From Clostridia bacterium (GTDB lineage Bacteria; Bacillota; Clostridia; Christensenellales; Aristaeellaceae), in the NCBI GenBank assembly GCA_017481825.1, contig JAFUOR010000081.1, forward strand, positions 1 to 37,249: 37,249 nt of DNA. The letters are read 5' to 3'. Below the pieces are notes generated by a model. The model saw only the letters and a program-made list of their open reading frames with translations. It was not told where the DNA came from and did no database searches. Each line of letters starts with the position of its first letter. Within the stretch, counting starts at the first letter, position 1. The translations under genes were made by a program, and so were the position numbers. Positions 8,559 to 27,276 of this stretch are shown here, one piece after another.

Positions 8559-9623
8559 ATGACGCGTGTGGGCGTGATGACCTTTTTGCACAACGACAAC
8601 TACGGCTCCATCCTGCAGGCCTTTGCACTGCAGCAGGTGCTGCTCGACCTCGGCTATGACGCGAGGCACATCGACTATGCGCCGGATAAGCAGGAGAAGC
8701 TTTGCAACCTGCTGCGTTCCGGCAATTCGCCCATGCTGATTCTGGATGGCATGCGCAAGAAGAGCGCTGCTGGCAAGATGCACGGCGGCTTTGACGAATT
8801 TCGCGCGCAGCACATCCGTTTGACGGACAGGTGTCCGAAGCATGCAGCCCTGACCAGGGCAGCGGAGGAGTTCGACGTGCTTGTGTGCGGCTCTGATCAG
8901 ATCTGGTCGCCCGTGTGGCTGAATCCGGCGTATTTCCTTGATTTCACGTCCCGACCGAAGGTTGCCTACGCACCGTCCCTGGGCGTGCAGGCGCTGCCTG
9001 GCAGATGCAAGCAAAGGCGCATGGCAGCGCTGATGAAGCCCTTCCAGGCGGTGTCCGTACGTGAGGAGGAGGGCGCTGCGCTGGTTCAGGCGATGACAGG
9101 GCGTACGCCTGCCATCCTGCCTGATCCGGTGATGCTCCTGCCAAGGGAACGCTGGCAGTCCATCCTGGATGCGGATATTCCGCAGGAGCCGTACATCCTG
9201 TGCTACTTTATCGGCGACCATCCGTCCTACTGGCAGAAGGCGGCGTCGCTGGCGCAGGCGACCGGTCTTCCCGTGCGTGTCATCCCGCGCACCGAGGGCG
9301 CGCGTCAGTCCGGTCATGAGCTGGAGGAGAACGTCCCGCCGCAGCGTTGGCTCGCGCTCATCAACGGCGCGGCGCATATCGTCACGGACAGCTTCCACGG
9401 CGCGGCCTTCGCGTCCATCCTGAACAGGCCGTGCCATATCCTCCGGCGCTACCGCGAGGATGACCCGGAAAGCAAAAACAGCCGCATCGATCAGCTCCTG
9501 CGCACCATCGGCGTCAAGGATCTGGCAGATGCGGACTGGGATGCAGTCAATGCTCATCTTTCTTTGGAGCGTGAGCGCGGCGTCAAGTGGCTGCAGGAGG
9601 CCATCACCCAAGCAGCACCCTGA
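8559..9623 (+). CDS. Polysaccharide pyruvyl transferase family protein
   Basis: 354 residues, ATG at 8559 after TGAGGTG. The N-terminus (GVMTFLHNDNYGSILQAFAL) is the family's typical first strand and helix. Further marks are the L-V-C-G-S-D-Q-I-W-S segment near residue 110, the V-A-Y-A-P-S-L-G segment, ILPDPVML near residue 190, and V-T-D-S-F-H-G-A-A-F-A near residue 275, a nucleotide-sugar-type binding motif of these enzymes. Family members add pyruvate ketals to sugars of exopolysaccharide or wall polymers, using phosphoenolpyruvate; many in Clostridia stand alone and have unknown acceptors. No glycosyltransferase genes are next to it. Its last 20 bases overlap the convergent pseudouridine synthase gene. 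Confidence 0.9.
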   Translation: MTRVGVMTFLHNDNYGSILQAFALQQVLLDLGYDARHIDYAPDKQEKLCNLLRSGNSPMLILDGMRKKSAAGKMHGGFDEFRAQHIRLTDRCPKHAALTRAAEEFDVLVCGSDQIWSPVWLNPAYFLDFTSRPKVAYAPSLGVQALPGRCKQRRMAALMKPFQAVSVREEEGAALVQAMTGRTPAILPDPVMLLPRERWQSILDADIPQEPYILCYFIGDHPSYWQKAASLAQATGLPVRVIPRTEGARQSGHELEENVPPQRWLALINGAAHIVTDSFHGAAFASILNRPCHILRRYREDDPESKNSRIDQLLRTIGVKDLADADWDAVNAHLSLERERGVKWLQEAITQAAP

Positions 9624-10476
9624 GGGCGTCTGGCAGCGGCGATATGATATGGAGCGCCTTGCCCGTGAGAGGGTGCAGCAGATGCAGCTCATGGGAATGC
9701 AGGGCAAAGCGTCCCGGCAGTTCGTCAAGCTCGCTGCCATACAGGAAGTCACCACACACGGGGCAGCCCATATGCCGCATATGCACGCGGATTTGATGGG
9801 TTCGCCCCGTTTTCAGCTGCAGGCGAACCAGCGAGCGGGTGGCCGTCTCCTCCAGTACCTCATAATGGGTGACGGACGGCTTGCCGCTGCCGGTAATGAT
9901 ACGCCGGATGCTGGCGGCATCCTCCTTGCCGATGGGGGCGTTGATCACGCCTTGATGCTGGGGCAGATGACCCTCTACCACGGCGAGGTAGACGCGGTTG
10001 AAGCCATCCGTGTGCAAAAGTGATTGCAGCCGGTGCTGGCTGTGAGGCGTGCGTGCTACGACCATCAGGCCGCTGGTACCCTTATCCAGCCGGTTTACGG
10101 GGCGGTACACAAAATCCTCCGGGCAGCCAAAGTGGGCAAAGAGGGCGTTTTCCAGCGCATCATCCGGGTGGTTCGCACTGGACTGGGAGGCCAGAGGCGC
10201 AGGCTTGTCGATGATCAGCAGATGCTCGTCGGCATAGGGAATGTTCAGCCCCAGCGGGTAGGGCTTCACCGCGTAGGCAGGCGTGATGTCCTTCCAGCGC
10301 ATGGCGACGGTCTGCCCCTCGCGCAGCACGGTATCCACTGCAACGGGGGTGCCGTCAACCGTGATGCGCCCATCCCATTTGGCGCTCTTCATGGCGCTGT
10401 AGCTCACGCCCATCACGCCGCGCAGGATGTCCTTGACCCTCCGGCCTGCTTCCGCCGCCGTGACACGATGCTCCAT
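9604..10476 (-). CDS. RluA-family pseudouridine synthase
   Basis: 290 residues from the ATG at 10476, placed 8 bases after GGAGG; the in-frame GTG at 10485 lies inside that ribosome site and is rejected. About residues 1-65 form an S4-like RNA-binding domain. The catalytic motif is N-R-L-D-K-G-T-S-G-L with Asp131, and the later LKTGRTHQIRVHMRHMGCPV segment is diagnostic of RluA. The enzyme isomerises uridine to pseudouridine in 23S rRNA or tRNA; the exact site is not readable. It has a clean promoter of its own at 10497-10525 and ends 20 bp inside the convergent pyruvyl transferase gene. Confidence 0.95.
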   Translation of the reverse strand: MEHRVTAAEAGRRVKDILRGVMGVSYSAMKSAKWDGRITVDGTPVAVDTVLREGQTVAMRWKDITPAYAVKPYPLGLNIPYADEHLLIIDKPAPLASQSSANHPDDALENALFAHFGCPEDFVYRPVNRLDKGTSGLMVVARTPHSQHRLQSLLHTDGFNRVYLAVVEGHLPQHQGVINAPIGKEDAASIRRIITGSGKPSVTHYEVLEETATRSLVRLQLKTGRTHQIRVHMRHMGCPVCGDFLYGSELDELPGRFALHSHELHLLHPLTGKALHIISPLPDALRVLLG

Positions 10477-10496
10477 GTCCTTCACCTCCCAGCAGC

Positions 10497-10560: not shown

Positions 10561-13500
10561 TTATTTCAGCGGTGCACGCACCTGATGCACCCTGCCGTCA
10601 TCGGTCAGGGTGAAGGTCATCCCGGCGCGCTCTTCGCCATCCAGCGTCAGGGTGGTCAGGCCACGCTCGAGGCTGATGTGCCAGGTGGAGGAGCCCTCCT
10701 GCCAGTCGATGGTGTAGCCGTCCCAGTCCGCAGGAACGTTGGGGGAAAGCGTAACCTGATTACCTCTTTTGCAAAAGCCCAGCATGTTCTCCAGCACGGC
10801 AGCATAGAGCCAGCCTGCCGCACCGCTTCCGCCGGAGACGGCACGGCCTGGGTCAAGGGGAGCAGCCAGCATTCCGCCCGGCAGGAAGTAGGGCGCCTGG
10901 CGGAATTCCTCCGTGCGCAGGATATCATCGGTATGGTGGATGGGATTGAGGGCCCGCAGCAGCTCCCAGGCGCGCTCGTCCTGATGCAGATGCATCAGGG
11001 CCATCAGCAGCCATGCGGCATGCCGGGTATCCTGCGCGCCGTTGCCGACGCTGCCAGGAAGCGTCAGTCCATCCGTGCTTTCGCGATCACTGACAAGGCC
11101 GTGCTGCTGATCGTAGAGGCGTGTCCAGACCATTTCGATGGCCTGTCTGGTACGGTCGGTGCTGCCGATGGCCAAGGCCGCCCAGAGCTGCGGCAGCAGG
11201 GTCAGGGCCTCGCCATAATGGCCGTCCTGCCATGTGCGCTCAGCGGTGGAAGCCAGCTGCTGCCTGCGCTGACGCAGCGCCGCATCCTCCCGCAGGGACA
11301 GCAGTGTGTCACAGGCGTAGAGCGCCAGATGGTCGCCCTCGGCAATGGAGGAAACGCAGCGCGCCCAGAGGGTTTCATCCGTGCGAGGCAATGCGGCGTC
11401 CAGCACGGCCATATCGCCGGTGACGCGCGTATACCACGCTGCCGCGACAGGCAGCGGTGCGCCGCAGTCGGTGGAGGCGCTCAGCAGCAGACAGGCGCGG
11501 GCCTTGCGCGCATCCATCAGGGCCAATGCCGGTACAGCGTCCAGGGATGCCTCAGGTAAAGCCATGGCCTGATAGGGCAGGATGCGGTTCATCAGGCGAT
11601 CCAGGGTATCTTCCGGGGTGGCGATGGATATCCGCTGGATGGCGGCTGCCCATGCGCCCTTGATTTGCCGCAGCATGGCGGAGGCGCCCTGATCCCGCAG
11701 ATCGCACAGAGCCAGGGCAGCCTGATCACCGGAGGTTGCATAGCCGATGAGGCAGGTGGCTTCCTCGCTTGCGCCGGGAGCGATGGTCAGGGGAAGAGTC
11801 AGCAGTGCTGTTTGTCCCCGGGCGCTCGATGGCGCGGTCAGGCAGGGCTCGTCCTGGAGACCGGCGGCCATCATAGACGGTACGCACCGTGCCTGCCAGC
11901 CGCCCTCCAACCCTGCCAGATACGTGCTGCGCTCCTCCGGGGTGGAGGCGATCACCAGCCCCTCGACAGGGGTCAAGAAGCCGGGGAGGCGCGCGCCAAT
12001 GTGTACGGTCAGGGTGGAGGCGGTTCGGGCAACGTTGCGGATGCGCAGCGCCAGCAGCATGGCCGGATGCCCGGGCAGGAGGCTTGCTGTCAGGGCGATA
12101 TCAAGGGCGTCGGTGAAGGTGCGCCATTCAGTGAAGCCCGCGCCCATCTGCACCACCCGTGGCAGCCGCACATCAAAGGGCGAAAACTGCGTGCCCTGAT
12201 GCACCAGACGGATGAAGGGCGCAAAAGGCGTGCGGATACCGCTTTCATCCACCGTGGCGCGCAGGTGGTGGCTGATGAGCAGGTTTTCCCAGGGTGCAGG
12301 CGTTGTCTGACCTGCGTCAAGGCGGATGAGGTAATCGCCTGTCTCTGGGTCAAAGCCGCCGTAGCCGCTGGGATGCAGCACCTTTCCCTTTGGCAGCGCG
12401 GCGGGGATGGGCGTACCTGCAGACTGTACAGGGATGGGCGTGCGCAGCGCCTGCAGCTGTGCTTCCAGCGTCCCTGCGCCGCTGATGAGCACAAGGCGGG
12501 CGGCGGCTGTGAGAGTGTGCAGCGTCTCCTGAGGCAGCTCTGGCAGGAGGATGACGCTGCTTGCATCAAGGATGCTTTCCTCCAGAGCGGTTTCGGCCAG
12601 GGGGAGCGTGGCTTCCGTGCAGACGATGCACAGCCTCAGCGGCAGATGCATCAGATGCAGCCAGGCGGTGAAGTTGAGCGCGTCCCAAAGAATTGCAGCA
12701 TCGGCGGCTTGCAGCAGCAGCGCCAGCAGGGGCGCGTCTGCCGGAATGCCAAGCCGTGCAAGACTGGAAGCAGGCATGGCTGTGGGCGCATCGCTGCCCT
12801 GATGGGGCTGCATGTCCCACATGACCGGGCCGACCAGCTGTGACAGGCGCATACGGTCAGCTGCCGCCACGGGGATGCTCTCAAGGAGCGCGCAGGCCTG
12901 CATATCGCTCAGCGATACGGTGCTTGCGGGGGATACAGCGCTGCTCTCGCTCAGCCCCGTGGTCAGTACGATGGTCGCCTGACCGCGCCCGCCCAGGGCG
13001 AGCTGCACCCGGAAGGAAAGGCAGGGCTCCAGAGAGGATACAAGGAGATCAGCCGCGTCCTCCTCCAGCGAGGCAGGATGTCGCAGCGTGCGGCCACGGC
13101 CCAGAAAGGCCGTTTCATCTGTGCAGACGGTGATGGACAAAGCTGTGCCATCCACCTGAATGGCGTGATGCATAGCGGTGTCCGCGCCAAGGCAGTGCAG
13201 CGTCAGCTCATGCCGATGAGGGCGCTGGATATCCAGGGCGCCGGGTGCTGCGTTCAGGTCAGGCAGGAGGAGATCGGCCAGCGTGACGGTACGGTCAAGG
13301 GTGGAGAGGTTCGTGACCTCAACGACATGCACCATGCGTGGCCCGGAGGGATCAACGCAGGCAGTCAGCACGCATTGCAGACTGCCGCAGAGGCATTCGC
13401 GCCGCATGCTGCCGCTGGTAAAGAGCGTTTTGCCGGGAAGCGTCGGATCGTTCAGGCGGAAGATGCGCCCCTCGTCTGCAAGGTAGAACTGCGGCCCTTC

Positions 13501-16500
13501 CAGGCGTGCTGCGTCGCCGGAAAAGCGCGTCAGGGGAAGCTGGCCAATCTGCATGGCGCTGCTGCCCTGAGCGCTGACGAGCATCCAGCCCTCGCTGCTG
13601 CCGATGAGATGTGCGTCAACAGGTGCGAAGGTGCCATCGGCGATGCGCGCGAGGACTGGCTGCATGTCCTCCGGCATGGAATGCCAGGTTCTGGCGGGGA
13701 GGACGAGGCCGTCTTCCTCCATGTGCAGCAGAGGCAGCGCGGCCTCCACCTTGGGGATGGCCGTGAAATATCGTTGAATGGGCGCATCTGCCAGCACATG
13801 GGCGATAGCGCACAGCAGGATACCCTGATGCGCCGTGTCATAGCGCCGGATGAGCGCGGGGCTGCCGCTGCCCCTCAGGTCGATGGCGTCGCAGTAGCCA
13901 TAGCGTCCCAGCATGCCAAGTTCGCGCATGTGCGTCAGGCAGCGGATGGTTTCCCTGCCAGCGTAGGGGAGGCAAAGCGCTGCTGCATAGGGCGCGAAAA
14001 CGGGGCTTGCATCGCTCTCGCCCACAGAGAGGCCCGGGAGGCCAAAGGTGTGCGTGAGGTACTGCATGGACATGTCAAAGCTCCAGCAGCCGCTTTCGGA
14101 TTGTCCAAAGAGTCCGTGCGCACCCTGGGCTGTCATGCAGGCCGTGACCTGTCGCGCCGTTCTGGAATCAAGGGGGATGAACAGTCCCGGCAACAGATAG
14201 GCGGTGGCGGTGCCGTGCCGGGACAGGGGGAGCGCGCCATGGCGCGTCAGAATCCGGGTGGAGGACAATTGGCGCAGATGCTCCGGCGGCACATCGCTGC
14301 AGGCTGCGGCGGTCAGTGATAGCAGGATCAGCTCATCCGCACGATAGGGGATGAGATCATCGCTCTGTCCCTCAGCGTCCAGCGAGGGGTGGAAAAGCTG
14401 CGCGGATGTATCGTAGAGGCGGGCAAGCTCGATGCGTTTGGATTGCGCATCCAGCTTGCCGGGCAGGTCATGCAGCGATGCGGGGAGCTGGGGCAGATCG
14501 CTGCGAAGCGCCTGCGCACAGGTCATCAGGCCTGTCAGGAGCAGCGTGCAGCCCAGGCTATCCACACTGCGGTCAATGGGGGTGAGCGTCTGCGTGTCAT
14601 ATGTCCGGCAGGGCAGGCCCAGCGGAAAGGCAAGCTGGGACAGGGTGGCGGCGGTTCGCTCCATGCGCCGCGCAGCCTCGGCTGGGCCGATGATCCGCAG
14701 CTCCTTTGCCGCGATGCAGCTGAGAAGATACATGCCGATGGCAGCCGGGGAGGTGACAGGAGCAGTGTCCCTGCGGGGCTCCACCTGCACGCAGCAGGGG
14801 GGCAGATAGCTCGTCCGGGCGGTGACGCATTTGGTGAAGTAGCGCCATGTGGCAGCGGCTGCCTCCTCCAGGAGGGGGACATCCCCTGCGGAGGGAACCT
14901 CCGGCATGGGCAGCGGCGCATCCAGATAGCGGTGCACCAGCGGGAAGCAGGCAAACAGCCCCCCAAGCACGATCCCCGGCAGGAACATGGGCGCGTAGCC
15001 GATGCTCACCGCCAGCAGCAGGGCAGCAGCAAGGCCCTGGCTCCATACCTCCATGGCCTGGAGCTGTTCATCCGCTGACAGGTCCTCTTCCTGGGCGCTG
15101 TGGCGCAGGAGCATCTGGCGGATTGTCCGCAGCACAGCGCGTATGCTGACGACGGTGCGGACAGGGAGCAGTGCCAGGCCAGCAAGCATGCGCAGCCATC
15201 CGCGTTTGGAGCAGATGGTGCGCAAAAACGGCGCAAAGCATGACAGCAGCGCCAAAGGCCAGCTGCGCAGAAGCGAGGCTGCAGCCAGCAGTACCAGCTG
15301 GCAGAGAGGGAGCAGCGCCTCTCGCAGACCCTCGTAGACCAGGTGACGGGACGCTGCATCCAGCGGGTTGTGCACCATACCTTCCGGTGTCTGAACCCAG
15401 GGAAAAAGCCAGGGCAGCAGCTGCCAGGCTGTTCGGGTCTGCCGGTGCAGCTGCTTCAGGCGGTCAGCCACCGTCGCTGCGGGATCACGGATGCAGTCCG
15501 CTTCTGTCTGGATGCAGCCGGACAGTAAGCCCGTCAGCTGGGCGGCGTCCAGAAGGCTGCCGGGGGCATACTGGCCGTCGATGGCCTCCAGAAATGCATC
15601 CGGGCGAATCAGGCCCGCAGAGTGAAAGCCCCGGGGCGCATCCATATCCAGCAGGCGGATGGCGCTGCCCTCGCGCCGGGGGTCGGATCGTATATCAGGA
15701 ATGGCGATGCTGTATCCACGGTACCCATCCGGCAGGGGATAGCGCGTGTTCAGCGGATGGGACATGCAGCCAAGGAGCGCATCGAACATGCCGGGCAGGG
15801 GCATCACCTCCGGTGTGAGCGCCATGACGAAGGCATAGCGCTGATGCAAAAGCGCCGGCGCCATGCTGCAGGCGTCCAGCACATCCTCGCATTCTCCCTG
15901 AGCGATGAGACGGCAGATGCAGGTCAATGCACCCATCCGGCCATCACGGGGGGCGTAGGTGCGGCGCTTTTCGTCCCAGATGCGGGAACGCTGCATGTAC
16001 ACAAACCTGCCTTCCTCCGGGTCAAGAGCGTCGATGGCGGCGGTGACGGCACGGATGATGACCGCGTCCTCTCCGGCTCGCATGGTGATGTTGGGCGCAT
16101 AGTCGCCCAGCAGCATGCAGTCCACGCCAATGGCGGGAAAGGCCTCGCGGAGCGTGACCAGCTTCCTGACCATGCGAATGGCCTCGTGCTGATCGTGCAG
16201 AACGGCTGGCAGAACGACCAGCGTCCGCAGATCCTGCGTTACAGCCGGTATGGACATGGCTGGGAGTGCCGAAGTCTTTTTCTCCTGCCAGACGGCGCGG
16301 CTGACGCACCCAAGCAGCAAGCCCGCAAAGGGCAGCAGGAGCATCGGCTGGCGCGTGTGCAGGTAAACGATGACCAGCGCAAGGGTGGTGATCCAAAGGG
16401 CTGCATGGCGGAGAGAGGAGCGGCGCCTTTGTACCAGCAGCCAGAGCCGCCCACGACGAAGACCGAGCGATTGATGCAGGAGCGCCATGCCGTCGGACTC

Positions 16501-17397
16501 CGTGAGGTAATACCCGACATGGTGCTCCAACATGCCTGGCTCCGCCTCCTGACACAGGCGAAGCGCTGTTTCGGCGATCTGCTCCTCACCGGCACGAAAC
16601 CGCTGCCCCAGCGCCGCACACTGCTTCCGGTAAAGGAGGCGGCTTTCCTGGGACATGCCCTCGTACAGCCCGGCAGGATCGTTCAGCAAACGCGTGTGCA
16701 GCGGGTCTACGGATTCAAGCGTGCGCGTCCAGTTCAAACGCCGGAGCAGATCGAAGCTTTCCGTCAGATGGCGCAGATGCTCCATGAATTTGGTGTTCCG
16801 GCGGGTGTGCTTGTGCGCGATTTCTTCTGCCGAGGTCTGGTGGTCTGCCAGCCAGTCATCGATGTCAGACAGCAGCTCCGACTGATGCAGCAGCCGGAGC
16901 TCCGTGAGAAGTGAAGAAAGCGCTGCGGGGGAGAGCTCCTGCTTCATCAAAGACTTCATGGGCTGACGAAGGCCGGCAAGGCGGTGCGCAAGACGGATGC
17001 CGGTCAGGCGGTCCCGCTCGTCCGCCTGCAGGAGCCGAAGCATCTCAGCCAGCTGCTCGGACAAAGCGGCGGCAAGGCAATGGGGCAGATAGAGACGCTC
17101 GTCAAGGGTTGTATTGCTAAGATCGCTGATGCAGGAAAGCATATCGGAGGCTGTGAAGGAATGCCCGGCCATTTCCCGTGCGTGAACCAGCATGCGCAGC
17201 ACGCCATCCTGCGTCAGCGGGAGCGGCTGCATGGAGGAAACCTCCCGCGCGGCATGCATCAGGGATTCCATGAGAGACGGTGCCTTTTCATGCAGCATGA
17301 TCATCACAGGAGAGACCGGTGCAGCCTGCGTCAAGCGCCGGAGCAGCCGCATGCATCGCCGGTTAATCCGTACCTGTCCGTGCCTGTTTGCATTCAT
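10561..17397 (-). CDS. Giant cyclic beta-1,2-glucan synthase (NdvB/ChvB)-like membrane protein with degenerate catalytic motifs
   Basis: 2278 residues without interruption; active NdvB proteins are roughly 2800. Order: N-terminal helical region (1-330); membrane pair about 333-370; glycosyltransferase-84-like domain about 390-665; further membrane segments about 690-725 and 785-825; glucoamylase-like domain about 845-1180 (TYDTQTLTPIDRSVDSLG, GLFGQSESGCWSFDM, FGLPGLSV, APYAAAL, GRYGYCDAID); carbohydrate-binding sandwiches; C-terminal GH94-like alpha barrel (RLMNRILPYQ to the end). The fold marks match, but key residues do not: where active enzymes have L-D-A-D-T this reads LTPEVMPLP (527-535); the H-R-W-A-R-G-D-W segment is HRQTRTAW (651-658); S-H-D is DAA; and the phosphorylase general-acid motif GDWNDGM is absent from residues 1992-2055. 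It may be a scaffold, a binding protein or a diverged enzyme. Its neighbour is the divergent LCP/kinase operon. Confidence 0.85.
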   Translation of the reverse strand: MNANRHGQVRINRRCMRLLRRLTQAAPVSPVMIMLHEKAPSLMESLMHAAREVSSMQPLPLTQDGVLRMLVHAREMAGHSFTASDMLSCISDLSNTTLDERLYLPHCLAAALSEQLAEMLRLLQADERDRLTGIRLAHRLAGLRQPMKSLMKQELSPAALSSLLTELRLLHQSELLSDIDDWLADHQTSAEEIAHKHTRRNTKFMEHLRHLTESFDLLRRLNWTRTLESVDPLHTRLLNDPAGLYEGMSQESRLLYRKQCAALGQRFRAGEEQIAETALRLCQEAEPGMLEHHVGYYLTESDGMALLHQSLGLRRGRLWLLVQRRRSSLRHAALWITTLALVIVYLHTRQPMLLLPFAGLLLGCVSRAVWQEKKTSALPAMSIPAVTQDLRTLVVLPAVLHDQHEAIRMVRKLVTLREAFPAIGVDCMLLGDYAPNITMRAGEDAVIIRAVTAAIDALDPEEGRFVYMQRSRIWDEKRRTYAPRDGRMGALTCICRLIAQGECEDVLDACSMAPALLHQRYAFVMALTPEVMPLPGMFDALLGCMSHPLNTRYPLPDGYRGYSIAIPDIRSDPRREGSAIRLLDMDAPRGFHSAGLIRPDAFLEAIDGQYAPGSLLDAAQLTGLLSGCIQTEADCIRDPAATVADRLKQLHRQTRTAWQLLPWLFPWVQTPEGMVHNPLDAASRHLVYEGLREALLPLCQLVLLAAASLLRSWPLALLSCFAPFLRTICSKRGWLRMLAGLALLPVRTVVSIRAVLRTIRQMLLRHSAQEEDLSADEQLQAMEVWSQGLAAALLLAVSIGYAPMFLPGIVLGGLFACFPLVHRYLDAPLPMPEVPSAGDVPLLEEAAAATWRYFTKCVTARTSYLPPCCVQVEPRRDTAPVTSPAAIGMYLLSCIAAKELRIIGPAEAARRMERTAATLSQLAFPLGLPCRTYDTQTLTPIDRSVDSLGCTLLLTGLMTCAQALRSDLPQLPASLHDLPGKLDAQSKRIELARLYDTSAQLFHPSLDAEGQSDDLIPYRADELILLSLTAAACSDVPPEHLRQLSSTRILTRHGALPLSRHGTATAYLLPGLFIPLDSRTARQVTACMTAQGAHGLFGQSESGCWSFDMSMQYLTHTFGLPGLSVGESDASPVFAPYAAALCLPYAGRETIRCLTHMRELGMLGRYGYCDAIDLRGSGSPALIRRYDTAHQGILLCAIAHVLADAPIQRYFTAIPKVEAALPLLHMEEDGLVLPARTWHSMPEDMQPVLARIADGTFAPVDAHLIGSSEGWMLVSAQGSSAMQIGQLPLTRFSGDAARLEGPQFYLADEGRIFRLNDPTLPGKTLFTSGSMRRECLCGSLQCVLTACVDPSGPRMVHVVEVTNLSTLDRTVTLADLLLPDLNAAPGALDIQRPHRHELTLHCLGADTAMHHAIQVDGTALSITVCTDETAFLGRGRTLRHPASLEEDAADLLVSSLEPCLSFRVQLALGGRGQATIVLTTGLSESSAVSPASTVSLSDMQACALLESIPVAAADRMRLSQLVGPVMWDMQPHQGSDAPTAMPASSLARLGIPADAPLLALLLQAADAAILWDALNFTAWLHLMHLPLRLCIVCTEATLPLAETALEESILDASSVILLPELPQETLHTLTAAARLVLISGAGTLEAQLQALRTPIPVQSAGTPIPAALPKGKVLHPSGYGGFDPETGDYLIRLDAGQTTPAPWENLLISHHLRATVDESGIRTPFAPFIRLVHQGTQFSPFDVRLPRVVQMGAGFTEWRTFTDALDIALTASLLPGHPAMLLALRIRNVARTASTLTVHIGARLPGFLTPVEGLVIASTPEERSTYLAGLEGGWQARCVPSMMAAGLQDEPCLTAPSSARGQTALLTLPLTIAPGASEEATCLIGYATSGDQAALALCDLRDQGASAMLRQIKGAWAAAIQRISIATPEDTLDRLMNRILPYQAMALPEASLDAVPALALMDARKARACLLLSASTDCGAPLPVAAAWYTRVTGDMAVLDAALPRTDETLWARCVSSIAEGDHLALYACDTLLSLREDAALRQRRQQLASTAERTWQDGHYGEALTLLPQLWAALAIGSTDRTRQAIEMVWTRLYDQQHGLVSDRESTDGLTLPGSVGNGAQDTRHAAWLLMALMHLHQDERAWELLRALNPIHHTDDILRTEEFRQAPYFLPGGMLAAPLDPGRAVSGGSGAAGWLYAAVLENMLGFCKRGNQVTLSPNVPADWDGYTIDWQEGSSTWHISLERGLTTLTLDGEERAGMTFTLTDDGRVHQVRAPLK

Positions 17398-17548
17398 CAG
17401 CCATCGTCTCCTTCACGTCGGTTTGCATTTATCCTGCCCGGAGATAAAGAAATGGATACGCGTTGTAAACAAATCGCGTCCATGGGAAATCTGGTGACTT
17501 ATCGGCTGAAATGCCCCTGTATCGTCTGCGAAGAATGCCTATAAAATA

Positions 17549-17577
17549 TTGACAGTCAGCAAATTGTGTAGTATACT
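17549..17577 (+). promoter_or_regulatory. Promoter of the LCP-Wzz-kinase operon
   Basis: TTGACA (17549-17554), 17-bp spacer, TATACT (17572-17577). The 150 bases between it and the divergent giant gene show no convincing second promoter. Confidence 0.85.
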
Positions 17578-17582
17578 ATGAA

Positions 17583-17616
17583 CTATCGTGGAGCCGACTG
17601 TCATGGCGCACGATAG
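17583..17616 (+). promoter_or_regulatory. Inverted repeat / 5'-UTR hairpin just after the LCP operon promoter
   Basis: CTATCGTG (17583-17590) is repeated inverted as CACGATAG (17609-17616), 18 bases apart. It begins at the expected transcription start and ends 14 bases before the LCP start codon, next to the purine-rich ribosome site gaggaaagag. It could be an operator or an mRNA-stabilising or translation-modulating hairpin. Confidence 0.6.
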
Positions 17617-17630
17617 AGAGGAAAGAGACG

Positions 17631-18701
17631 ATGCGCATGATGAATCAACTCAAGCGAATTGTTGTGATGCTGCTGGCCGTGCTGTTTATGTGCACGGGTG
17701 TTGCATCTGCGGAGTCCTTTGGCTTCCTGCCGACCAAGGAATACAATGGTCAGACTTATCAGGTTCGCCCGGAAGCCGAGCTGACCACAGTGCTTCTTAT
17801 CGGCTTTGACCATATCGATCATGGTGCTGTGGAGATTGACCAGTATGGTTACAGCAACGGCGGTCAGTCCGACTTCCTGTTGTGGCTGGTGTTTGACCAC
17901 AAGAACGAAACCATCCATCGCCTGCAGCTTGACCGTGACAGCATGACGCCTGTGAAGGTCTGGGGTCAGGACGGCACGTATTATGGCGCGCAGACTCGTC
18001 AGCTGTGCCTGTCTCACGCCTACGGCCATACGCTGGAAGAGAACAATGCCAATGCCATCTGGGCTGTGGAGAACCTGCTGGGCGTGACCAATGCCACTGA
18101 TGGCGTGGGTGTTGACTGGTATATGACCATGGATATCAGCGGCATCAACAAGCTCAATGAGATCCTTGGCGGCGTTACGGTTCCGATCGAGGATGATTTC
18201 TCCAAGATGGACACTTCTCTGGTGCAGGGAACCACCGTCAAGCTGACTGGCACGCAGGCGGAAACCTATGTCCGCGGCCGCATGACAGTGGTTAATGACC
18301 CCACCAACAAGAACCGCATGGCTCGCCAGCGTCATTACATGACGGGCGCTGCGCAGATCCTCAAGGAGAAGCTGACGGAGGATATCAACTTCGCCAATAC
18401 GCTGCTCAATGAGATGGGCATCATCTATGACAAGTCTACCGAGCTGGGCAGCGAATTCGGCTTCACCACCAACGATTATGTCGGCACGCCCGTGTCGGAG
18501 ATTCCCTCCGCCTATCTGATGACCAATGAGTCCATGGATCGTATCGTGTCCCTGCTGGCGCGCGTGATCAACTACGAGCTTCTCGAAACCGAAACGCTGC
18601 CCGGCGAGCACACCAAGATCGACGGCTATGCTGCGTTCCTTGTTGAGGAAGGCTCTGCCGAGGCTTGGGTGATGGACACGTACTACGTCCCCGTGAACTG
18701 A
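17631..18701 (+). CDS. LytR-CpsA-Psr (LCP) family phosphotransferase
   Basis: 356 residues from the ATG at 17631 (an in-frame ATG at 17637 is also possible). Residues 1-27 are a signal peptide or signal anchor with a hydrophobic run and A-S-A. The LCP core shows T-T-V-L-L-I-G-F-D, then G-Q-S-D-F-L-L-W-L-V-F near residue 80, then L-Q-L-D-R-D-S-M near residue 100, and A-E-T-Y-V-R-G-R-M with N-R-M-A-R-Q-R-H near residues 210-235, which supply the arginines that hold the polyprenyl pyrophosphate. LCP proteins move undecaprenyl-linked glycopolymers onto peptidoglycan outside the membrane. It is first in an operon with a Wzz-like protein, a BY-kinase and a phosphatase. A sequence like WxQDGTYYGAQ replaces the usual I-N-A-A/Y region, so it is a diverged member. 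Confidence 0.88.
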   Translation: MRMMNQLKRIVVMLLAVLFMCTGVASAESFGFLPTKEYNGQTYQVRPEAELTTVLLIGFDHIDHGAVEIDQYGYSNGGQSDFLLWLVFDHKNETIHRLQLDRDSMTPVKVWGQDGTYYGAQTRQLCLSHAYGHTLEENNANAIWAVENLLGVTNATDGVGVDWYMTMDISGINKLNEILGGVTVPIEDDFSKMDTSLVQGTTVKLTGTQAETYVRGRMTVVNDPTNKNRMARQRHYMTGAAQILKEKLTEDINFANTLLNEMGIIYDKSTELGSEFGFTTNDYVGTPVSEIPSAYLMTNESMDRIVSLLARVINYELLETETLPGEHTKIDGYAAFLVEEGSAEAWVMDTYYVPVN

Positions 18702-18767
18702 TGGTTTCCTGTTTGCTACGTATGAAAGCGCTGCCTAAGCGTAACGACACACGTTTGGAGGATTGAC

Positions 18768-19550
18768 ATGGCTTCTGCTGCAAAGAGCAACCGTGAGCTG
18801 AATGCCCGCGAGGAGCTGCTCATGAAGGAAGAAGAATCGGGCGAGCTGGAAATCGATCTGGTCGCGCTCATGTATCGCCTGCTTGAAAAGGCGAAATGGA
18901 TCGTGGCGGCGGCGCTGCTTTGCACGCTGCTGATGGGTATCTTTACCGCGAATTTTATCACTCCTCTCTATGAATCCACGGCTAAGCTGTATGTGGCAAA
19001 CACCAGCAGCGGCACGCTGGACCTGACCGCGCTGAACCTGGGTACTTCGCTGGCCAATGACTATATGCAGGTTTTCGACAACTGGCACGTCCACGAGGCC
19101 GTCCGTCAGCGTCTGGGGCTGAACTACTCCTACAAGGAGCTCGGCGATATGCTGGCAACCGCCAATCCTACCAGCACGCGCATCCTGAGCATTACCGTGA
19201 CTTCGCCTGATCCCCAGGAGGCCAAGGACATGGCGATGACCTATGCGCAGGTTGCGGTGGAGTTCATCGCGGCAAAGATGAATGCTGATAAGCCCACGAT
19301 TTTCGAGGAGCCCCGCGTTCCTGAAAATCCTGCGTCTCCCAGCATGGTTAAGAACCTGATCCTGGGCTTCCTGCTGGGCGCTGTGGTGGCTGCGGCGATC
19401 ATCGTCGTGCAGTTCATCGCGGATGACCGTATCCGTAATTCCGATCGCCTGGAGAAGCAGTTGGGTCTGGCCACGCTGGGTATGATGCCCGTCCAGGAAA
19501 AGAAGAGCAAGGGTAAGAATACGACGAAGAAGGGTGGGGAGCAGAAATGA
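18768..19550 (+). CDS. Wzz-type chain-length determinant / BY-kinase activator membrane protein
   Basis: 260 residues, ATG at 18768 after TGGAGGA. An acidic N-terminal tail (about 1-40) leads into a first membrane segment at about 44-64 and a second at about 197-216, with the external helical domain between them. The T-P-L-Y-E-S-T-A-K-L-Y segment after the first segment and the E-P-R-V-P-E-N-P-A-S-P-S proline motif before the second are diagnostic of Wzz/CapA/YveK proteins. In Gram-positive capsule systems this protein sets polymer length and activates the cytoplasmic tyrosine kinase through its C-terminal tail, which is Lys-rich here. The stop overlaps the start of the kinase gene (ATGA). 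Confidence 0.92.
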   Translation: MASAAKSNRELNAREELLMKEEESGELEIDLVALMYRLLEKAKWIVAAALLCTLLMGIFTANFITPLYESTAKLYVANTSSGTLDLTALNLGTSLANDYMQVFDNWHVHEAVRQRLGLNYSYKELGDMLATANPTSTRILSITVTSPDPQEAKDMAMTYAQVAVEFIAAKMNADKPTIFEEPRVPENPASPSMVKNLILGFLLGAVVAAAIIVVQFIADDRIRNSDRLEKQLGLATLGMMPVQEKKSKGKNTTKKGGEQK

Positions 19551-20269
19551 GGCAGGCGATCATTCATGAGAAGCTGACGCTTGATTACGCTGGCGAAGAA
19601 GCGCTGAACTCCATCTGTACCAACCTGATGTTTGCCGGCCGCGATGTGAAGAAGGTCGTTTTCACCTCTAACCTGCAGAGTGAAGGCAAGAGCTGGATGA
19701 CCATGCATGTCATGGCGAACATGGCGCATCGTGGCCGCCGCGTGGTGCTGATTGATGCCGATATGCGCCGCTCCTTCATCATGCAGCGCTACAAGATCGA
19801 GGTGGATGGCGAGGTGCTGGGTCTGGCCCATTATCTGACCGGCCAGTGCGATCTGGACAGCGCCATTTACGAGACCAACCTGAACGGTGCCTGCATCATC
19901 CCCGCTGGCCGCGATGTCAGCAACCCCGTGTCGCTGATTGATTCCCCTTATTTCAGCGCGATGCTCGATGAGCTCGCCATGCATTTCGACATGGTTATCG
20001 TGGATGCGCCGCCCATTGGCATGGTCATTGATGCTGCTGAAATTGCCAGCTCCTGTGACGGCACGGTCATTGTGACGGAGTACAACAAGACCCGTCTACG
20101 CGAGGTTGCGGAGTGTAAGCGCCAGATGGAGCAGTCGGGCACGCCGGTGCTGGGCTGCATCATCAACAAGGTGGCCTTTGATACCATCAGCGCGAAGAAA
20201 TACTACAACAAGTCGTATTACAGCCACTACCGCAGCGGCTACTATCGCAAGGATCCCAACGAAGATTAA
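19547..20269 (+). CDS. Bacterial tyrosine kinase (BY-kinase, CpsD/CapB/YwqD type)
   Basis: 240 residues, translationally coupled (ATGA at 19547) to the Wzz-like gene. Walker A is SNLQSEGKSW (residues 41-50, Lys48), with Trp where Thr or Ser normally follows the lysine-serine pair. Walker A' is VLIDADMRR (67-75) and Walker B is VIVDAPP (150-156). The E-A-L-N-S-I-C-T-N-L segment before the P loop is the usual oligomerisation helix. The C-terminus carries a cluster of seven tyrosines (residues 219-233: KYYNKSYYSHYRSGYY), the autophosphorylation site of the family. Phosphorylation cycles with the downstream phosphatase control polymer synthesis. No Wzx, Wzy or glycosyltransferase genes lie nearby, so the targets must be elsewhere. 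Confidence 0.94.
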   Translation: MRQAIIHEKLTLDYAGEEALNSICTNLMFAGRDVKKVVFTSNLQSEGKSWMTMHVMANMAHRGRRVVLIDADMRRSFIMQRYKIEVDGEVLGLAHYLTGQCDLDSAIYETNLNGACIIPAGRDVSNPVSLIDSPYFSAMLDELAMHFDMVIVDAPPIGMVIDAAEIASSCDGTVIVTEYNKTRLREVAECKRQMEQSGTPVLGCIINKVAFDTISAKKYYNKSYYSHYRSGYYRKDPNED

Positions 20270-20275
20270 CGCATC

Positions 20276-20315
20276 GGCCGCACGCATGCCAGGAATGGTG
20301 ACGTGCGGCCTTTTA
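20276..20315 (+). terminator. Intra-operon hairpin terminator between kinase and phosphatase genes
   Basis: GGCCGCACG (20276-20284) pairs perfectly with CGTGCGGCC (20302-20310), followed by TTTTA. It begins 6 bases after the kinase stop and ends 15 bases before the phosphatase start. It probably lowers read-through into the phosphatase gene. Confidence 0.82.
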
Positions 20316-20329
20316 TCGGAAGGTTGTTT

Positions 20330-21046
20330 ATGGACAAGTTTGTTGATATTCACCATCATATTGTGTACGGTGTGGATGACGGTGCGCGCTCCTTTGAGGA
20401 TATGCAGAAGATGCTCCTTCGCGCGGCCTCGGAGAATGTCGGCGACATCATCTGCACCTCTCACGGTACGCCTGGCGGTCATCCTTTCCCGGCGGATGCA
20501 TATATCGAGCATCTGGCGAAAGGGCAGGCCTGGGCTGATGAACAGGGGCTGGAGATCAGGCTGCACAATGGCTGCGAGATCCTTTATACGGACGCCAGCC
20601 CCCGTCTGTTGAAGGAAGGCCATTTCCCGTCCCTCAATGATACATGGAATGTCCTGGTGGAGTTCTCGCCGGATGCGGAATTCAAGCGCCTCTGTGAAGC
20701 TGCGCGCATGCTGGGTAACGTTGGCTTCCAGGTGATCTTCGCTCATGTGGAGCGCTACTCGGCCCTGCGCAACTTCAAAAATGTTCAGGAACTGCGCGAG
20801 GAATATGGCGTCTACATGCAAATGAACAGCAACACGGTTACGACGAAGAAGGGCTTCTTTACAGACCGTTGGGTGCGTCACATGCTGGACGAGGGTTTCA
20901 TTGACTGCATTGGCACTGATGCCCATAACACCTCGTCCCGCCCGTGCTCCATGAAGCTGTGCCATGAGATGCTCAAGGCCCGTTACGGCCAGGACACTGC
21001 TGACGAAATGTGCGGAGGCTTTGCCAGAAACCTGCTGGGTCTGTAA
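20330..21046 (+). CDS. PHP-type protein tyrosine phosphatase (CpsB/CapC/YwqE type)
   Basis: 238 residues from the ATG at 20330, six bases after GGAAGG; an upstream ATG at 20303 lies inside the terminator stem and is rejected. The metal-binding motif at the start, D-I-H-H-H with G-V-D-D-G-A-R-S, is typical of the PHP phosphatases of Gram-positive capsule loci, as are T-S-H-G-T-P, A-H-V-E-R-Y near residue 140 and G-T-D-A-H-N near residue 195. It removes phosphate from the tyrosine cluster of the BY-kinase, resetting polymer assembly. It is the last gene of the operon and is separated from the kinase by a hairpin terminator. Confidence 0.93.
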   Translation: MDKFVDIHHHIVYGVDDGARSFEDMQKMLLRAASENVGDIICTSHGTPGGHPFPADAYIEHLAKGQAWADEQGLEIRLHNGCEILYTDASPRLLKEGHFPSLNDTWNVLVEFSPDAEFKRLCEAARMLGNVGFQVIFAHVERYSALRNFKNVQELREEYGVYMQMNSNTVTTKKGFFTDRWVRHMLDEGFIDCIGTDAHNTSSRPCSMKLCHEMLKARYGQDTADEMCGGFARNLLGL

Positions 21047-23465: not shown

Positions 23466-24101
23466 TTATTTTGCGAAGAATGCGGCAAGCTTTCCATGCT
23501 TATTGACGCACAGCCCCTGCCAGCCGCAGTGCATGGCGGCCTCGATGTTGCCGGGGGTGTCATCGATGAAGAGCGTGCGTGAGGGCGTGAGGCCAAACCG
23601 GGCAATCAGGTGCTCGTAAATGGCATGTCCCGGCTTGACCATCTGGATGTGACTGGAGATGACCTTCTCGTCAAACAGACGGAAGAAATCCAGCTTGTTC
23701 CAGATGTAGCTGATGCCTTCCGCCGGGTAGTTGGACAGGGCGTAGACCTTCTTGCCGTGGGCTTTGCAGGCACGGAGCGCTGCAACACCCTCCTCAATGG
23801 GTTCCAGGTCAAACCAGCCGCGCATCACGCGGGCCACATAGGGCAAAATCGCATCATCGCCGCTGGACATGGCCTCGATGGCTTCATCAATGGTGATGGT
23901 GCCGTGATCCAGCATACACCAGTAGGGGGAGCGGAAGATACGCACGGTCAGATCATCGTGCAGATCGGGGCGTTCGGGGACGATCTTCTCCAGCAGCTCG
24001 GCGGGAATGTAGCGCAGCAGCACATTACCGATGTCAAAGACCACCGCGTCGATCTCATCCCACGGCATGGATGCATATTTGTCGTCGATCATCAGATTCA
24101 T
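23466..24101 (-). CDS. HAD superfamily (subfamily IA) sugar-phosphatase-like hydrolase
   Basis: 211 residues from the ATG at 24101, six bases after GAGGTG; in-frame starts further upstream precede the promoter. HAD motif I is V-V-F-D-I-G-N-V-L-L (nucleophile Asp23); the D-x-G-N-V form resembles YihX-type glucose-1-phosphate phosphatases. Motif II is Y-A-L-S-N-Y, motif III the Lys in M-V-K-P, motif IV L-F-I-D-D-T-P-G-N-I. The substrate is unknown. Its promoter is divergent from that of deoB, which it shares an intergenic region with, so a role in sugar-phosphate or nucleoside catabolism would fit. Confidence 0.9.
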   Translation of the reverse strand: MNLMIDDKYASMPWDEIDAVVFDIGNVLLRYIPAELLEKIVPERPDLHDDLTVRIFRSPYWCMLDHGTITIDEAIEAMSSGDDAILPYVARVMRGWFDLEPIEEGVAALRACKAHGKKVYALSNYPAEGISYIWNKLDFFRLFDEKVISSHIQMVKPGHAIYEHLIARFGLTPSRTLFIDDTPGNIEAAMHCGWQGLCVNKHGKLAAFFAK

Positions 24102-24120
24102 CTGTATCACCTCGATCAAT

Positions 24121-24149
24121 AGCATACGCCATTCGTTCTGTAAAATCAA
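24121..24149 (-). promoter_or_regulatory. Probable promoter of the HAD hydrolase gene
   Basis: On the minus strand TTGATT (24144-24149), 17-bp spacer, TATGCT (24121-24126). Four of six bases match consensus in each box. Confidence 0.5.
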
Positions 24150-24154
24150 GCCCC

Positions 24155-24183
24155 TTTTCATTTATGGGAAGATGGTGTATAAT
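24155..24183 (+). promoter_or_regulatory. Probable promoter of the deoB operon
   Basis: A perfect TATAAT at 24178-24183 has a poor -35 (TTTTCA, 24155-24160) 17 bp upstream, suggesting dependence on an activator or a weak promoter. The AAAGGAGG ribosome site follows at 24191-24198. Confidence 0.55.
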
Positions 24184-24206
24184 AGAGTAAAAAGGAGGCT
24201 GTCTGT

Positions 24207-25370
24207 ATGAAGCGAGTTTTTCTGACCGTTCTGGATGGCGCCGGCGTCGGCTATCTGCCGGATGCTGCGCAGTATGGCGATGTGGGCTCCTGCACCTGGG
24301 GCCATGTGGTAGATGCCTGTGCGCCCAAGCTGCCCAACATGGCGAAGCTGGGTCTTGGACATATTGAGGGCACACATTATTCGCCGGACGCAGCGGCGGT
24401 GGGCGCCTTTGGCCGGGCGATGGAGGCCAGCGCCGGCAAGGACACCACCACCGGCCACTGGGAGCTGGCGGGCCTGAAGCTGGAAAAGCCCTTCCCGACC
24501 TTTCCCGAGGGCTTCCCGACGGACTTCATGGCCAGGTATGAGGCTGCCATTGGCCACAAGTGCATCGGCAACTACCCGGCCTCCGGTACGGCAATCCTGG
24601 ATGAACTGGGCGAGGAGCATATGCGCAATAAGACGCCCATCGTCTACACCTCGGCGGACAGCGTGTTCCAGATTGCCTGCCATGAGGATGTGTTCTCCCG
24701 CGAGGAGCTCTACGAGCTGTGCCGCATCGCCCGGGAGATGCTGACGGGCGATCTGTGCGTGGGCCGTGTGATTGCGCGTCCCTTTGTCGGCACGGGGAAG
24801 GGCGCCTTCACCCGTACCTCCGGTCGCCGCGACTTTGCCGTCCCGCCCTTTGGGGAGACGCTGCTGGACGTGGTGCAGGCCGCCGGGATGGAGAGCCTGG
24901 GCGTGGGCAAGATTGAGGATATCTTCGATCAGCGGGGCCTCACTGGTTCCAACCATGCCTCCGGTAATCCCGCCTGCATCGATGCGTGGATGGCGTATAT
25001 GCGCAAGTCCTTCACGGGTCTGTGCTTCACCAACCTGGTGGATACCGACTCCCTCTACGGCCATCGCAATGACGCGCCGGGCTTTGCCAGGGCTCTTGAA
25101 TATTTCGATCAGAAGCTGCCGGAGATTCAATCGCTCATGACGGACGAAGATCTGCTCATCATCACGGCTGATCACGGCTGTGACCCGTGCTTCCCCGGTA
25201 CCGATCACACCCGCGAGCACATTCCGCTGATGGTCTGGCACAAGGGCATGAAGAAGCTTGTTGACCTGGGCGTCCGCACCACCTATGCCGATGTGGCGGC
25301 TACCTGTGCCGAGTGGCTTGGGCTGCCGGAGAGGTTTGGCGCGGCTTCCTTTGCGGATCAGCTTCGATAA
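24207..25370 (+). CDS. deoB: Phosphopentomutase
   Basis: 387 residues, ATG at 24207 after AAAGGAGG. The alkaline-phosphatase-superfamily start V-F-L-T-V-L-D-G-A-G-V-G carries the metal-binding Asp10; K-D-T-T-T-G-H-W-E near residue 80 carries the phospho-acceptor threonine; and I-I-T-A-D-H-G-C-D-P near residue 315 with G-T-D-H-T-R-E-H-I-P completes the two-metal site. The enzyme interconverts (deoxy)ribose 1-phosphate and 5-phosphate, linking nucleoside phosphorolysis to pentose metabolism. It leads an operon with purine nucleoside phosphorylase, its partner in nucleoside salvage. Confidence 0.97.
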   Translation: MKRVFLTVLDGAGVGYLPDAAQYGDVGSCTWGHVVDACAPKLPNMAKLGLGHIEGTHYSPDAAAVGAFGRAMEASAGKDTTTGHWELAGLKLEKPFPTFPEGFPTDFMARYEAAIGHKCIGNYPASGTAILDELGEEHMRNKTPIVYTSADSVFQIACHEDVFSREELYELCRIAREMLTGDLCVGRVIARPFVGTGKGAFTRTSGRRDFAVPPFGETLLDVVQAAGMESLGVGKIEDIFDQRGLTGSNHASGNPACIDAWMAYMRKSFTGLCFTNLVDTDSLYGHRNDAPGFARALEYFDQKLPEIQSLMTDEDLLIITADHGCDPCFPGTDHTREHIPLMVWHKGMKKLVDLGVRTTYADVAATCAEWLGLPERFGAASFADQLR

Positions 25371-25385
25371 CGGAGGTGATATTGC

Positions 25386-25637
25386 GTGAAAAAAGTCATG
25401 ACATGGGCAGCCGTCATCGCTTCCATAGCCGCTTTGCTCAGCTGGGGTGTTATGGGGGTAAAGATATTTGATGGTGACTATGAAACTGCCGTAGAAGCGC
25501 ATATCATGCTGGTTTCTATTCTGATCCTTCTTGTGTGCGCTGTTTACAAGCTTATCAACAGCAAGTGTCCGCATTGCGGAAAGCTTCGATTAACCAGCGG
25601 AAAATATTGCTCTCATTGTGGCAAGGAAATTGAATAA
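25386..25637 (+). CDS. Small membrane protein with C-terminal zinc ribbon
   Basis: 83 residues starting with GTG at 25386, eight bases after GGAGGTG. Two membrane segments (about residues 5-27 and 38-57, the second reading M-L-V-S-I-L-I-L-L-V-C-A-V) are followed by a short zinc ribbon, CPHCGKLRLTSGKYCSHCGK (C-x-x-C, 11 residues, C-x-x-C). Double-zinc-ribbon membrane peptides of this kind are widespread and functionally obscure. It is AT-richer than deoB and the phosphorylase on either side and sits between them in the operon with short gaps, so it is probably a late insertion. It ends 14 bases before the phosphorylase. Confidence 0.8.
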   Translation: MKKVMTWAAVIASIAALLSWGVMGVKIFDGDYETAVEAHIMLVSILILLVCAVYKLINSKCPHCGKLRLTSGKYCSHCGKEIE

Positions 25638-25651
25638 CGGAGGATAAAACC

Positions 25652-26470
25652 ATGCAGGAATACATTCAAAAGCTCCACACCGCTGCCGACGCCATCCGGG
25701 CCGCCGTGGGCGAGGCTGATATCGGCGTGATCCTTGGCTCTGGCCTGGGCGATTATGTCGAGGCCCTTGAGGATGCGAAGTACATCGATTACAAGGACAT
25801 TCCGGGTTTCCCGTACTCCACGGCTCCCGGTCATGCCGGACGCTGGTGGACGGGCAAGCTCCATGGTAAGCGCGTGTGCATGATGCAGGGGCGCTTCCAT
25901 GCCTATGAGGGCTGGAGCATGGAGGAGGTCACCATGCCTGTGCGCGTCATGTCCCTGCTGGGCGTGAAGACCCTTTTTGTCACCAATGCGGCGGGCGGCG
26001 TGAACCTGTCCTTCTCCCAGGGCTGCCTGATGATCATCAGCGATTTCATCAATATGTCTGGCAAGAATCCGCTGACGGGCCCGAATCTTTCCGAGTTCGG
26101 CGTGCGCTTCCCCGATATGTCCCACGCCTACGACCTTGACCTCATCAAGCTTTGCGAGGCACAGGCTGCCAGGCTGAACGTCTCCGTCCAGAAGGGCGTG
26201 TACATGTGGATGAACGGCCCCACCTACGAGACTCCTGCGGAGATCCGCATGGCGCGCATTCTCGGTGCGGATGCGGTGGGCATGTCCACCGTGCCGGAGA
26301 CCATCGTGGCACGGCACTGCGGCATGCGCGTGCTGGGCGTGAGCTGCATCACCAACATGGCGGCGGGCATCCTGGATCAGCTGCTGGACGAGCAGGAGGT
26401 CATCGACACCGCTGCCCGCGTCAAGGGAACCTTCCGTGCCCTGCTGGACGCGACGATCGAGGCGCTGTAA
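25652..26470 (+). CDS. punA: Purine nucleoside phosphorylase (trimeric PNP type)
   Basis: 272 residues, ATG at 25652 after CGGAGG. Motifs in order: V-I-L-G-S-G-L-G (phosphate loop, about 26-33), P-G-H-A-G-R near residue 65, M-Q-G-R-F-H-A-Y-E-G near residue 82, V-T-N-A-A-G-G near residue 112 and N-G-P-T-Y-E-T-P-A-E-I-R near residue 190. It splits purine nucleosides to base and (deoxy)ribose 1-phosphate, the substrate of DeoB encoded two genes upstream. The SDR gene follows with only one base between. Confidence 0.96.
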   Translation: MQEYIQKLHTAADAIRAAVGEADIGVILGSGLGDYVEALEDAKYIDYKDIPGFPYSTAPGHAGRWWTGKLHGKRVCMMQGRFHAYEGWSMEEVTMPVRVMSLLGVKTLFVTNAAGGVNLSFSQGCLMIISDFINMSGKNPLTGPNLSEFGVRFPDMSHAYDLDLIKLCEAQAARLNVSVQKGVYMWMNGPTYETPAEIRMARILGADAVGMSTVPETIVARHCGMRVLGVSCITNMAAGILDQLLDEQEVIDTAARVKGTFRALLDATIEAL

Positions 26471-26471
26471 G

Positions 26472-27206: not shown

Positions 27207-27238
27207 AATTCCGCATTCATAATTCCGGATTCCCTGGG

Positions 27239-27276
27239 CATGCTGTTTCCAAACGAAGCAAGGAGGAAACAGCATG
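27239..27276 (+). promoter_or_regulatory. 12-bp inverted repeat enclosing the ribosome site and start codon of the D,D-carboxypeptidase
   Basis: CATGCTGTTTCC (27239-27250) is perfectly inverted as GGAAACAGCATG (27265-27276), loop of 14 bases. The right arm contains the ATG (27274-27276) and the last two G of AAGGAGG (27260-27266). Folded RNA would hide the start codon, so translation should be low unless the hairpin is opened; alternatively the DNA palindrome is a protein site. Confidence 0.8.

Follow-up and report, generated by a model that had tools for sequence, protein, structure and literature searches.

What keeps a cyclic glucan synthase (CGS) gene open once its catalytic residues are gone? 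The question is raised by a locus in the window analysed here, that is, the whole 37,249-nucleotide stretch of contig JAFUOR010000081.1 from a Clostridia bacterium of the Aristaeellaceae, whose assembly of 3.16 Mb in 163 contigs is 90.9% complete and 5.4% contaminated. The gene (positions 10561-17397, minus strand, as for all of its parts given below) is one open frame of 2278 amino acids with an ATG start and no internal stop, which bears out the 6.8-kb frame without stop or frameshift of the initial annotation of this DNA. Its product is of the NdvB/CGS type, with the domain order GT84-GH189-GH94. Our reading, to which we give a probability of roughly two in three, is that a single-copy CGS became, at its original locus, a non-catalytic membrane scaffold.

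Loss of active-site residues from a full-length synthase

Among PDB entries the protein best matches 8rf9, Agrobacterium Cgs (E 5.2e-67), over five stretches along its length. In a Pfam scan the GH94 supersandwich and catalytic domains and DUF3131 were over the cut-off, Glycoamylase was under it, and no glycosyltransferase (GT) model matched. Residue roles follow the available portions of PMC10901819 and PMC10834661, and positions were mapped by way of 8rf0 and the motif-complete sister of genome G012: D624 and D626 correspond to LDxDT, Y694 to DPY, D739 to SHD and R773 to RW in the GT domain, and D2393 to GFRD and D2528 to GDWND in GH94.

The GT84 domain (15394-16245) is predicted to keep its fold, and the fold marks MSHPLN (residues 545-550) and FVYMQRSRIW (465-474) are in place, as is Asp D527 (D432 in the window); its catalytic residues are gone. 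In the alignment to Agrobacterium Cgs (8rf0) and the motif-complete sisters, LTPEVMPLP replaces LDxDT (residues 527-535, 15793-15819), with T528 for D624 and E530 for D626; DAA replaces S-H-D739 (residues 617-619, within 15529-15558), the catalytic base having become A619; and LHRQTRTAW replaces LHRWTRGDW of the RW motif (residues 650-658, 15424-15450), R773-W774 being now R652-Q653. These three losses stand as first read in the initial annotation, and the motif-complete close relatives G012, G006 and G009 do not share them, so that one of the refuting conditions set there came out the other way. Beyond what had been noted there, the loop with the primer tyrosine Y694 is deleted from a shortened IF1h region (15619-15702), and the active-site loops of GH94 are gone as well. 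The GH94 catalytic region with the C-terminus (10564-11622), its fold again predicted to be kept, has none of the stretches GFRDQLQD (D2393), HWWHP, GDWND (D2528) and CRID. The GH189 cyclization domain (13708-14871) keeps E1022 and E1101 at the acid/base and nucleophile positions and has lost two supporting residues, the equivalents of E1400 and H1536 both being Ala (A1066 and A1189). As judged from its sequence, at least two of the protein's three active sites are thus gone.

AlphaFold models of residues 1-838 and 1236-2278 are confident and still match Agrobacterium Cgs, and the fold is predicted to be kept. The N-terminal scaffold domain (NTD; 16423-17370, residues about 10-325, limits approximate) is confidently modelled. 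A simple hydropathy scan places six hydrophobic segments around the GT domain (14926-16416, residues about 328-371 and 691-824), in agreement with the six-helix membrane domain described for Cgs in the available part of PMC10901819, and the membrane anchor is predicted to be retained; a seventh segment, barely over the threshold, lies in the part of the Rossmann-like subdomain (RFL; 12238-12840, residues about 1520-1720, limits approximate). In Cgs, according to the same portion of that source, RFL touches NTD. Residues 1-30 (about 17300-17397) hold no N-terminal hydrophobic segment; the scan finds one in G012, G004, G010, G002, G016 and G017.

Orthology and copy number

A CGS-like locus is present in 16 of the 18 genomes of the genus. 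Where contigs reach, the CGS gene is bordered by an LCP/Wzz/CpsD/CpsB operon on one side and RluD-TopB-PepF on the other, alike in motif-complete G012, G006 and G009 and in eroded G010, G002 and G004. There are two exceptions, G013, with the RluD side present and other genes on the far side, and G008, with neither flank and only genes from another part of the window. In both (L042 and L043, respectively) homologues of the window genes at 23466-28689 adjoin the eroded CGS instead of LCP/Cps genes, a local rearrangement. Since the gene occupies the same locus as the motif-complete sister CGS, it is an orthologue of it. A second, motif-complete NdvB, for which the initial annotation had proposed to look, was not found in the window's own genome (about 91% complete), nor was a second full CGS locus seen among the 18 genomes of the genus, G005 being ambiguous with two different N-terminal pieces (contigs C13 and C18) in one bin of 7% contamination. 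The window gene is therefore a single-copy orthologue of CGS with no paralogue found; of the pseudoenzyme paralogue first proposed, the pseudoenzyme with a predicted fold stands and the paralogue does not.

Among the congeners, G012, G006 and G009 are motif-complete at all 16 scored catalytic positions, G003 is so as far as its contig extends, and G015 is without the GH94 pair only. The eroded ones are G000, G002, G004, G008, G010, G013 and G014, with G001 and G005 on partial contigs. A sequencing or binning artefact is unlikely, as the eroded state is common to separate congener assemblies. G017 (L050, 4892-8339) and G016 (L051, 5091-7731) carry NTD, a GT remnant and the membrane part in open frames beside RluD. 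G011 has no CGS in a genome only 71% complete, and in G007 (L128, 5095-5529) a 145-aa zinc-ribbon-like open reading frame lies between LCP and RluD, at the CGS site.

Recurrent loss across the family

In the wider family, 184 of 308 genomes gave a match at E 1e-40, some of these matches being GH94 phosphorylases only. From part of the matching genomes 141 rows were scored (56 including the window, and 85 further), 137 of which cover the GT region. D624, D739 and RW are kept in 123 of these 137, and all 123 also keep Tyr694 and the GH189 E/E/H triad, so that the motif loss in the window is more than chance variation. D626 is Gly in six rows that still hold D624, D739 and RW (L057, L061, L068, L196, L204 and L076); a change at D626 alone therefore means little, and the DxD-like motif may be able to do without its second Asp.

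The remaining 14 rows have lost at least one of D624, D739 and RW. RW is broken in every one of them; D624 is still Asp in four (G010, G004, G032 and G180) and D739 in two (G002 and G030). Tyr694 is likewise absent from all 14, by deletion in 11 and by replacement with Phe in 3. The GH94 letters are lost in only 2 of 108 GT-intact rows (G015 and G178), and in 10 of the 11 GT-lost rows covering GH94; the eleventh row, G002, has Asp at both aligned positions, yet the motif patterns are unmatched and the loop is deleted in the alignment. G180, in which GH94, Tyr694 and D739 are lost, keeps the GH189 triad, and the Glu pair E1022/E1101 is kept in the window, G004, G180 and G261. Taken together, these few rows suggest an order of loss from GH94 to GT and primer and then to GH189. 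The two CGS with intact GT and GH189 that have lost the GH94 catalytic residues, G178 (L143) and G015 (L040), are perhaps natural synthases without phosphorylase length control. Two genomes have the GH94 part in an open frame of its own, of 538 aa in G059 (contig C100) and of 571 aa in G029 (contig C102), through a split gene or an assembly break.

With the motif columns removed, the 14 GT-lost rows need at least five independent changes on a FastTree tree of 137 rows, all of them forced by starred branches; L052_G005b, L037_G001, L215_G313 and L207_G156 were left out of this tree. FastTree readily joins long branches, and the wider placing of one pair (g16) has a support of 46. On an IQ-TREE tree of 54 rows, 12 GT-lost rows need four changes. 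G030 and G180 each adjoin an intact species on the tree with a support of 100, and no second CGS was found in either genome, each 95% complete. GT loss has thus apparently arisen several times independently in this family.

Selection on the eroded proteins

When the window gene was evolved neutrally in simulation, 27-51 stops had arisen by 47% or 39% protein identity (20 runs) and 12-27 by 75% (10 runs), against none in the real gene; the simulation loads all change on one lineage, whereas the observed identities compare two living genes, and the fairer figures are therefore the lower ones. Full-length frames persist among six eroded proteins at a mean identity of 33%. For the window's own clade the comparison is one of identity only, and omega (the dN/dS ratio), obtained with our own codon-likelihood script, comes from three independent eroded branches elsewhere in the family or genus. 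It was 0.127 against a background of 0.101 in G180, 0.150 against 0.097 in G030 and 0.116 against 0.073 in G004, and an omega of 1 was rejected in each (2ΔlnL of 123.7, 157.5 and 201.3, respectively). G030 and G004 exceed their background with support (2ΔlnL 8.2 and 5.4), G180 without it (2.4). G178, with loss of GH94 only, gave 0.093 against 0.073 (2ΔlnL 1.3). The suggestion in the initial annotation that selection keeps the frame is supported by these values together with the absence of stops.

Relaxation differs between domains. The foreground-to-background ratio of omega for G180, G030 and G004, in this order, is 1.78, 2.05 and 2.75 in GT, 1.90, 1.88 and 2.58 in GH189, and 1.82, 2.69 and 2.58 in the catalytic part of GH94; it is 1.33, 1.58 and 1.74 in the C-terminus, 1.18, 1.31 and 1.73 in the membrane part, 1.50, 1.19 and 2.38 in GP1, 0.96, 1.33 and 1.52 in RFL with the second GP1 part, and 1.02, 1.24 and 0.54 in NTD. 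Relaxation is therefore strongest in GT, GH189 and GH94 and weak or absent in NTD, a contrast that is clear but not absolute. Identity of the catalytic domains, which in intact proteins are the best conserved, falls from 55-59% among intact family members to 29-36% among eroded ones, the remaining parts of which stand at 27-39%. At positions that do not vary among 11 intact proteins, the window protein has the shared residue at 13 of 13 in NTD, 6 of 7 in RFL (0.86) and 0.90 of 10 in GP1b, as compared with 0.47 of 68 in GT, 0.63 of 100 in GH189 and 0.32 of 71 in GH94. The protein has lost its motifs while its frame and, by prediction, its fold appear to be kept under purifying selection, as measured on independently eroded relatives, and in this it answers to a pseudoenzyme.

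A probable non-catalytic scaffold and the alternatives

An intact gene with dead active sites suggests a second job that is independent of catalysis; of the roles offered in the initial annotation, glucan binding or scaffolding may hold. The protein would be made and would act as a cytoplasmic, membrane-anchored scaffold of NTD, RFL and inactive domain shells, in which GH189 may still have a residual transglycosylase activity. In a GT-dead mutant of Agrobacterium Cgs, which has no glucan on Tyr694, the NTD-GT interface is disrupted, according to the available text of PMC10901819. Loss of the Tyr694 loop may let the eroded protein mature, and its scaffold close, without glucan, and such a release of maturation from glucan would explain why GT loss and Tyr694 loss are coupled in 14 of 14 rows. 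In the eroded clade a single column is newly fixed and five are nearly so, which points neither to a new active site nor to a strong new specialisation. As no active site is newly fixed and the flanks differ between eroded genera, the retained function is most likely an ancestral, non-catalytic one. A bolder proposition is that CGS has a second, non-catalytic job residing in its NTD-RFL-membrane scaffold and selectable alone, that in one family of gut Clostridia the dead scaffold has arisen in place at least five times and that loss of the Tyr694 loop is the switch releasing the fold from its need for glucan; we put it forward tentatively, and would lean slightly against its holding as a whole.

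Several points weigh against a selected scaffold. The alignments behind the AlphaFold models contain intact homologues, which biases them toward the ancestral fold. The domain ratios of omega carry no error bars, the eroded-branch values average the time before and after loss, and synonymous change is near saturation (t of 3-7 neutral changes per codon); the codon fit for the window clade ran to its bounds through saturation and was discarded, as was that for the g16 pair. G004 relaxes also in GP1 (2.38) and in the RFL part (1.52), and the window itself keeps 0.50 of 10 intact-invariant GP1 positions. The small number of newly fixed columns is a further point, and no neighbour common to the two other eroded genera hints at a partner. 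Finally, the same genus holds truncated CGS of 880 aa (G016) and 1149 aa (G017) and an empty site in G007, a series that fits decay as well.

Slow gene death is the rival that survives best. Synthesis would be unneeded in the gut, and GH94 loss would be followed by GT loss, truncation and deletion with no function left. The genus indeed shows every stage, from motif-complete through GH94-lost (G015), eroded full-length and truncated (G016, G017) to absent (G007), and the end branches of eroded proteins are longer (0.56 in G004 against 0.16 in its sister G015). Against this stand the absence of stops where 27-51 (39-47% identity) or 12-27 (75%) were simulated with all change on one lineage, an omega of 0.12-0.15 on the eroded branches, an NTD unrelaxed on two of the three and relaxed 1.24-fold on the third, and the full-length frames remaining among the six eroded proteins. 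We consider decay unlikely as the general explanation, yet it is a live rival and possible for any single species.

It is more doubtful still that the protein is an enzyme, either because GH189 by itself transglycosylates beta-1,2-glucan supplied from another source, or because catalytic residues have moved. The window and the three other proteins named above retain both catalytic Glu equivalents of GH189, and the GH189 domain of Thermoanaerobacter italicus CGS is active alone, according to the available portion of PMC10834661; however, the window has Ala in place of both E1400 and H1536, 8 of the 12 GT-lost rows covering GH189 are without at least one of the two Glu, and no GT is left to supply substrate. 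GT and GH189 were scanned for positions that are acidic in five or more of six eroded proteins, and none of the new ones falls at D624 or D739 in the alignment. They were residue 1021 in GH189 and, in GT, solely residue 405 (Q to E/D), which is not near D624/D739 in sequence.

Selection might also do no more than keep an expressed giant membrane protein from misfolding or toxicity until its deletion, as would fit a constraint that falls on the ancestral structure and comes with hardly any newly fixed positions. To silence or delete the gene would probably be simpler, and absence is common, 124 of the 308 family genomes being without a match at E 1e-40; the window gene also keeps a start with a Shine-Dalgarno-like sequence. 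We give this explanation very little credence. The idea that its own genome also encodes an active synthase, of which the protein would be a paralogue or, as the initial annotation suggested, perhaps a regulator, is scarcely tenable. Although a copy could have been missed in an assembly 91% complete, synteny shows orthology, no genus-mate has a second full CGS locus (G005 ambiguous), and no synthase to regulate was found either in that assembly or in the two 95%-complete eroded genomes, G030 and G180, with one CGS each.

Gene neighbourhood

The gene is flanked on one side by a gene for an RluD-type pseudouridine synthase (9604-10485, minus strand) and on the other by divergent LCP, Wzz, CpsD-like ATPase and CpsB genes (17631-21046, plus strand), both syntenic in the genus as described above. 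In the intergenic region between the divergent genes (17398-17630), AAGGAG precedes the CGS start codon ATG by about 10 nt, and a near-consensus promoter-like site, TTGACA-17-TATACT (17549-17577, plus strand), faces the opposite way, ahead of the LCP/Wzz/CpsD/CpsB genes. A link of the eroded CGS with this capsule operon was considered and rejected. Outside the genus, the neighbours seen in two further eroded genera were an HTH protein with a D-Ala-D-Ala carboxypeptidase (G030) and a GlgB-like protein with an SNF2 helicase (G032 and G261), and those of the intact family members checked differ as well. Rfam and tRNA scans gave no matches. Farther along this DNA of an uncultured gut clostridium lies a gene (28864-30390, minus strand) for a collagen-triple-helix protein with a weakly BclA_C-like end.

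Comparison with known systems

Pseudoenzymes are usually explained by duplication, and CGS is known as a factor in host interaction and osmoprotection. In the present case an enzyme of about 2300-2600 aa, encoded by a single gene copy, seems to have been stripped repeatedly of most or all active sites, with no duplicate found and with its scaffold under selection. If this holds, CGS would have a hidden non-catalytic role, for the study of which nature supplies separation-of-function proteins, and it would become testable what the tyrosine-linked glucan primer does in the folding of CGS. Among the literature matches listed, whose coverage lacks most subscription journals, no report of a CGS pseudoenzyme was found; no paper combining "Christensenellales" and "glucan synthase" turned up in the literature searched, and the available part of a CGS review (PMC11842490) mentions no CGS pseudoenzyme.

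The window protein resembles Agrobacterium Cgs (PMC10901819) in domain order, in membrane segments and in the predicted fold of NTD-GT and of the GH94 half, and differs from it in being without D624, D739, the W of RW, the primer Y694 and the GH94 residues D2393 and D2528. With the motif-complete congeners G012, G006 and G009 it shares locus, neighbours and 38% identity, whereas these keep all the scored positions. GH189 of T. italicus CGS (PMC10834661, PDB 8wy1) has both catalytic Glu equivalents in common with the window (E1022 and E1101), unlike the E1400 and H1536 equivalents, which in the window are Ala. With pseudoenzymes in general, as treated in the available parts of PMC10211241 and PMC6549527, the likeness lies in an enzyme fold without catalytic residues that is held under selection; the window protein stands apart from them as a single-copy orthologue in which several active sites have been lost together.
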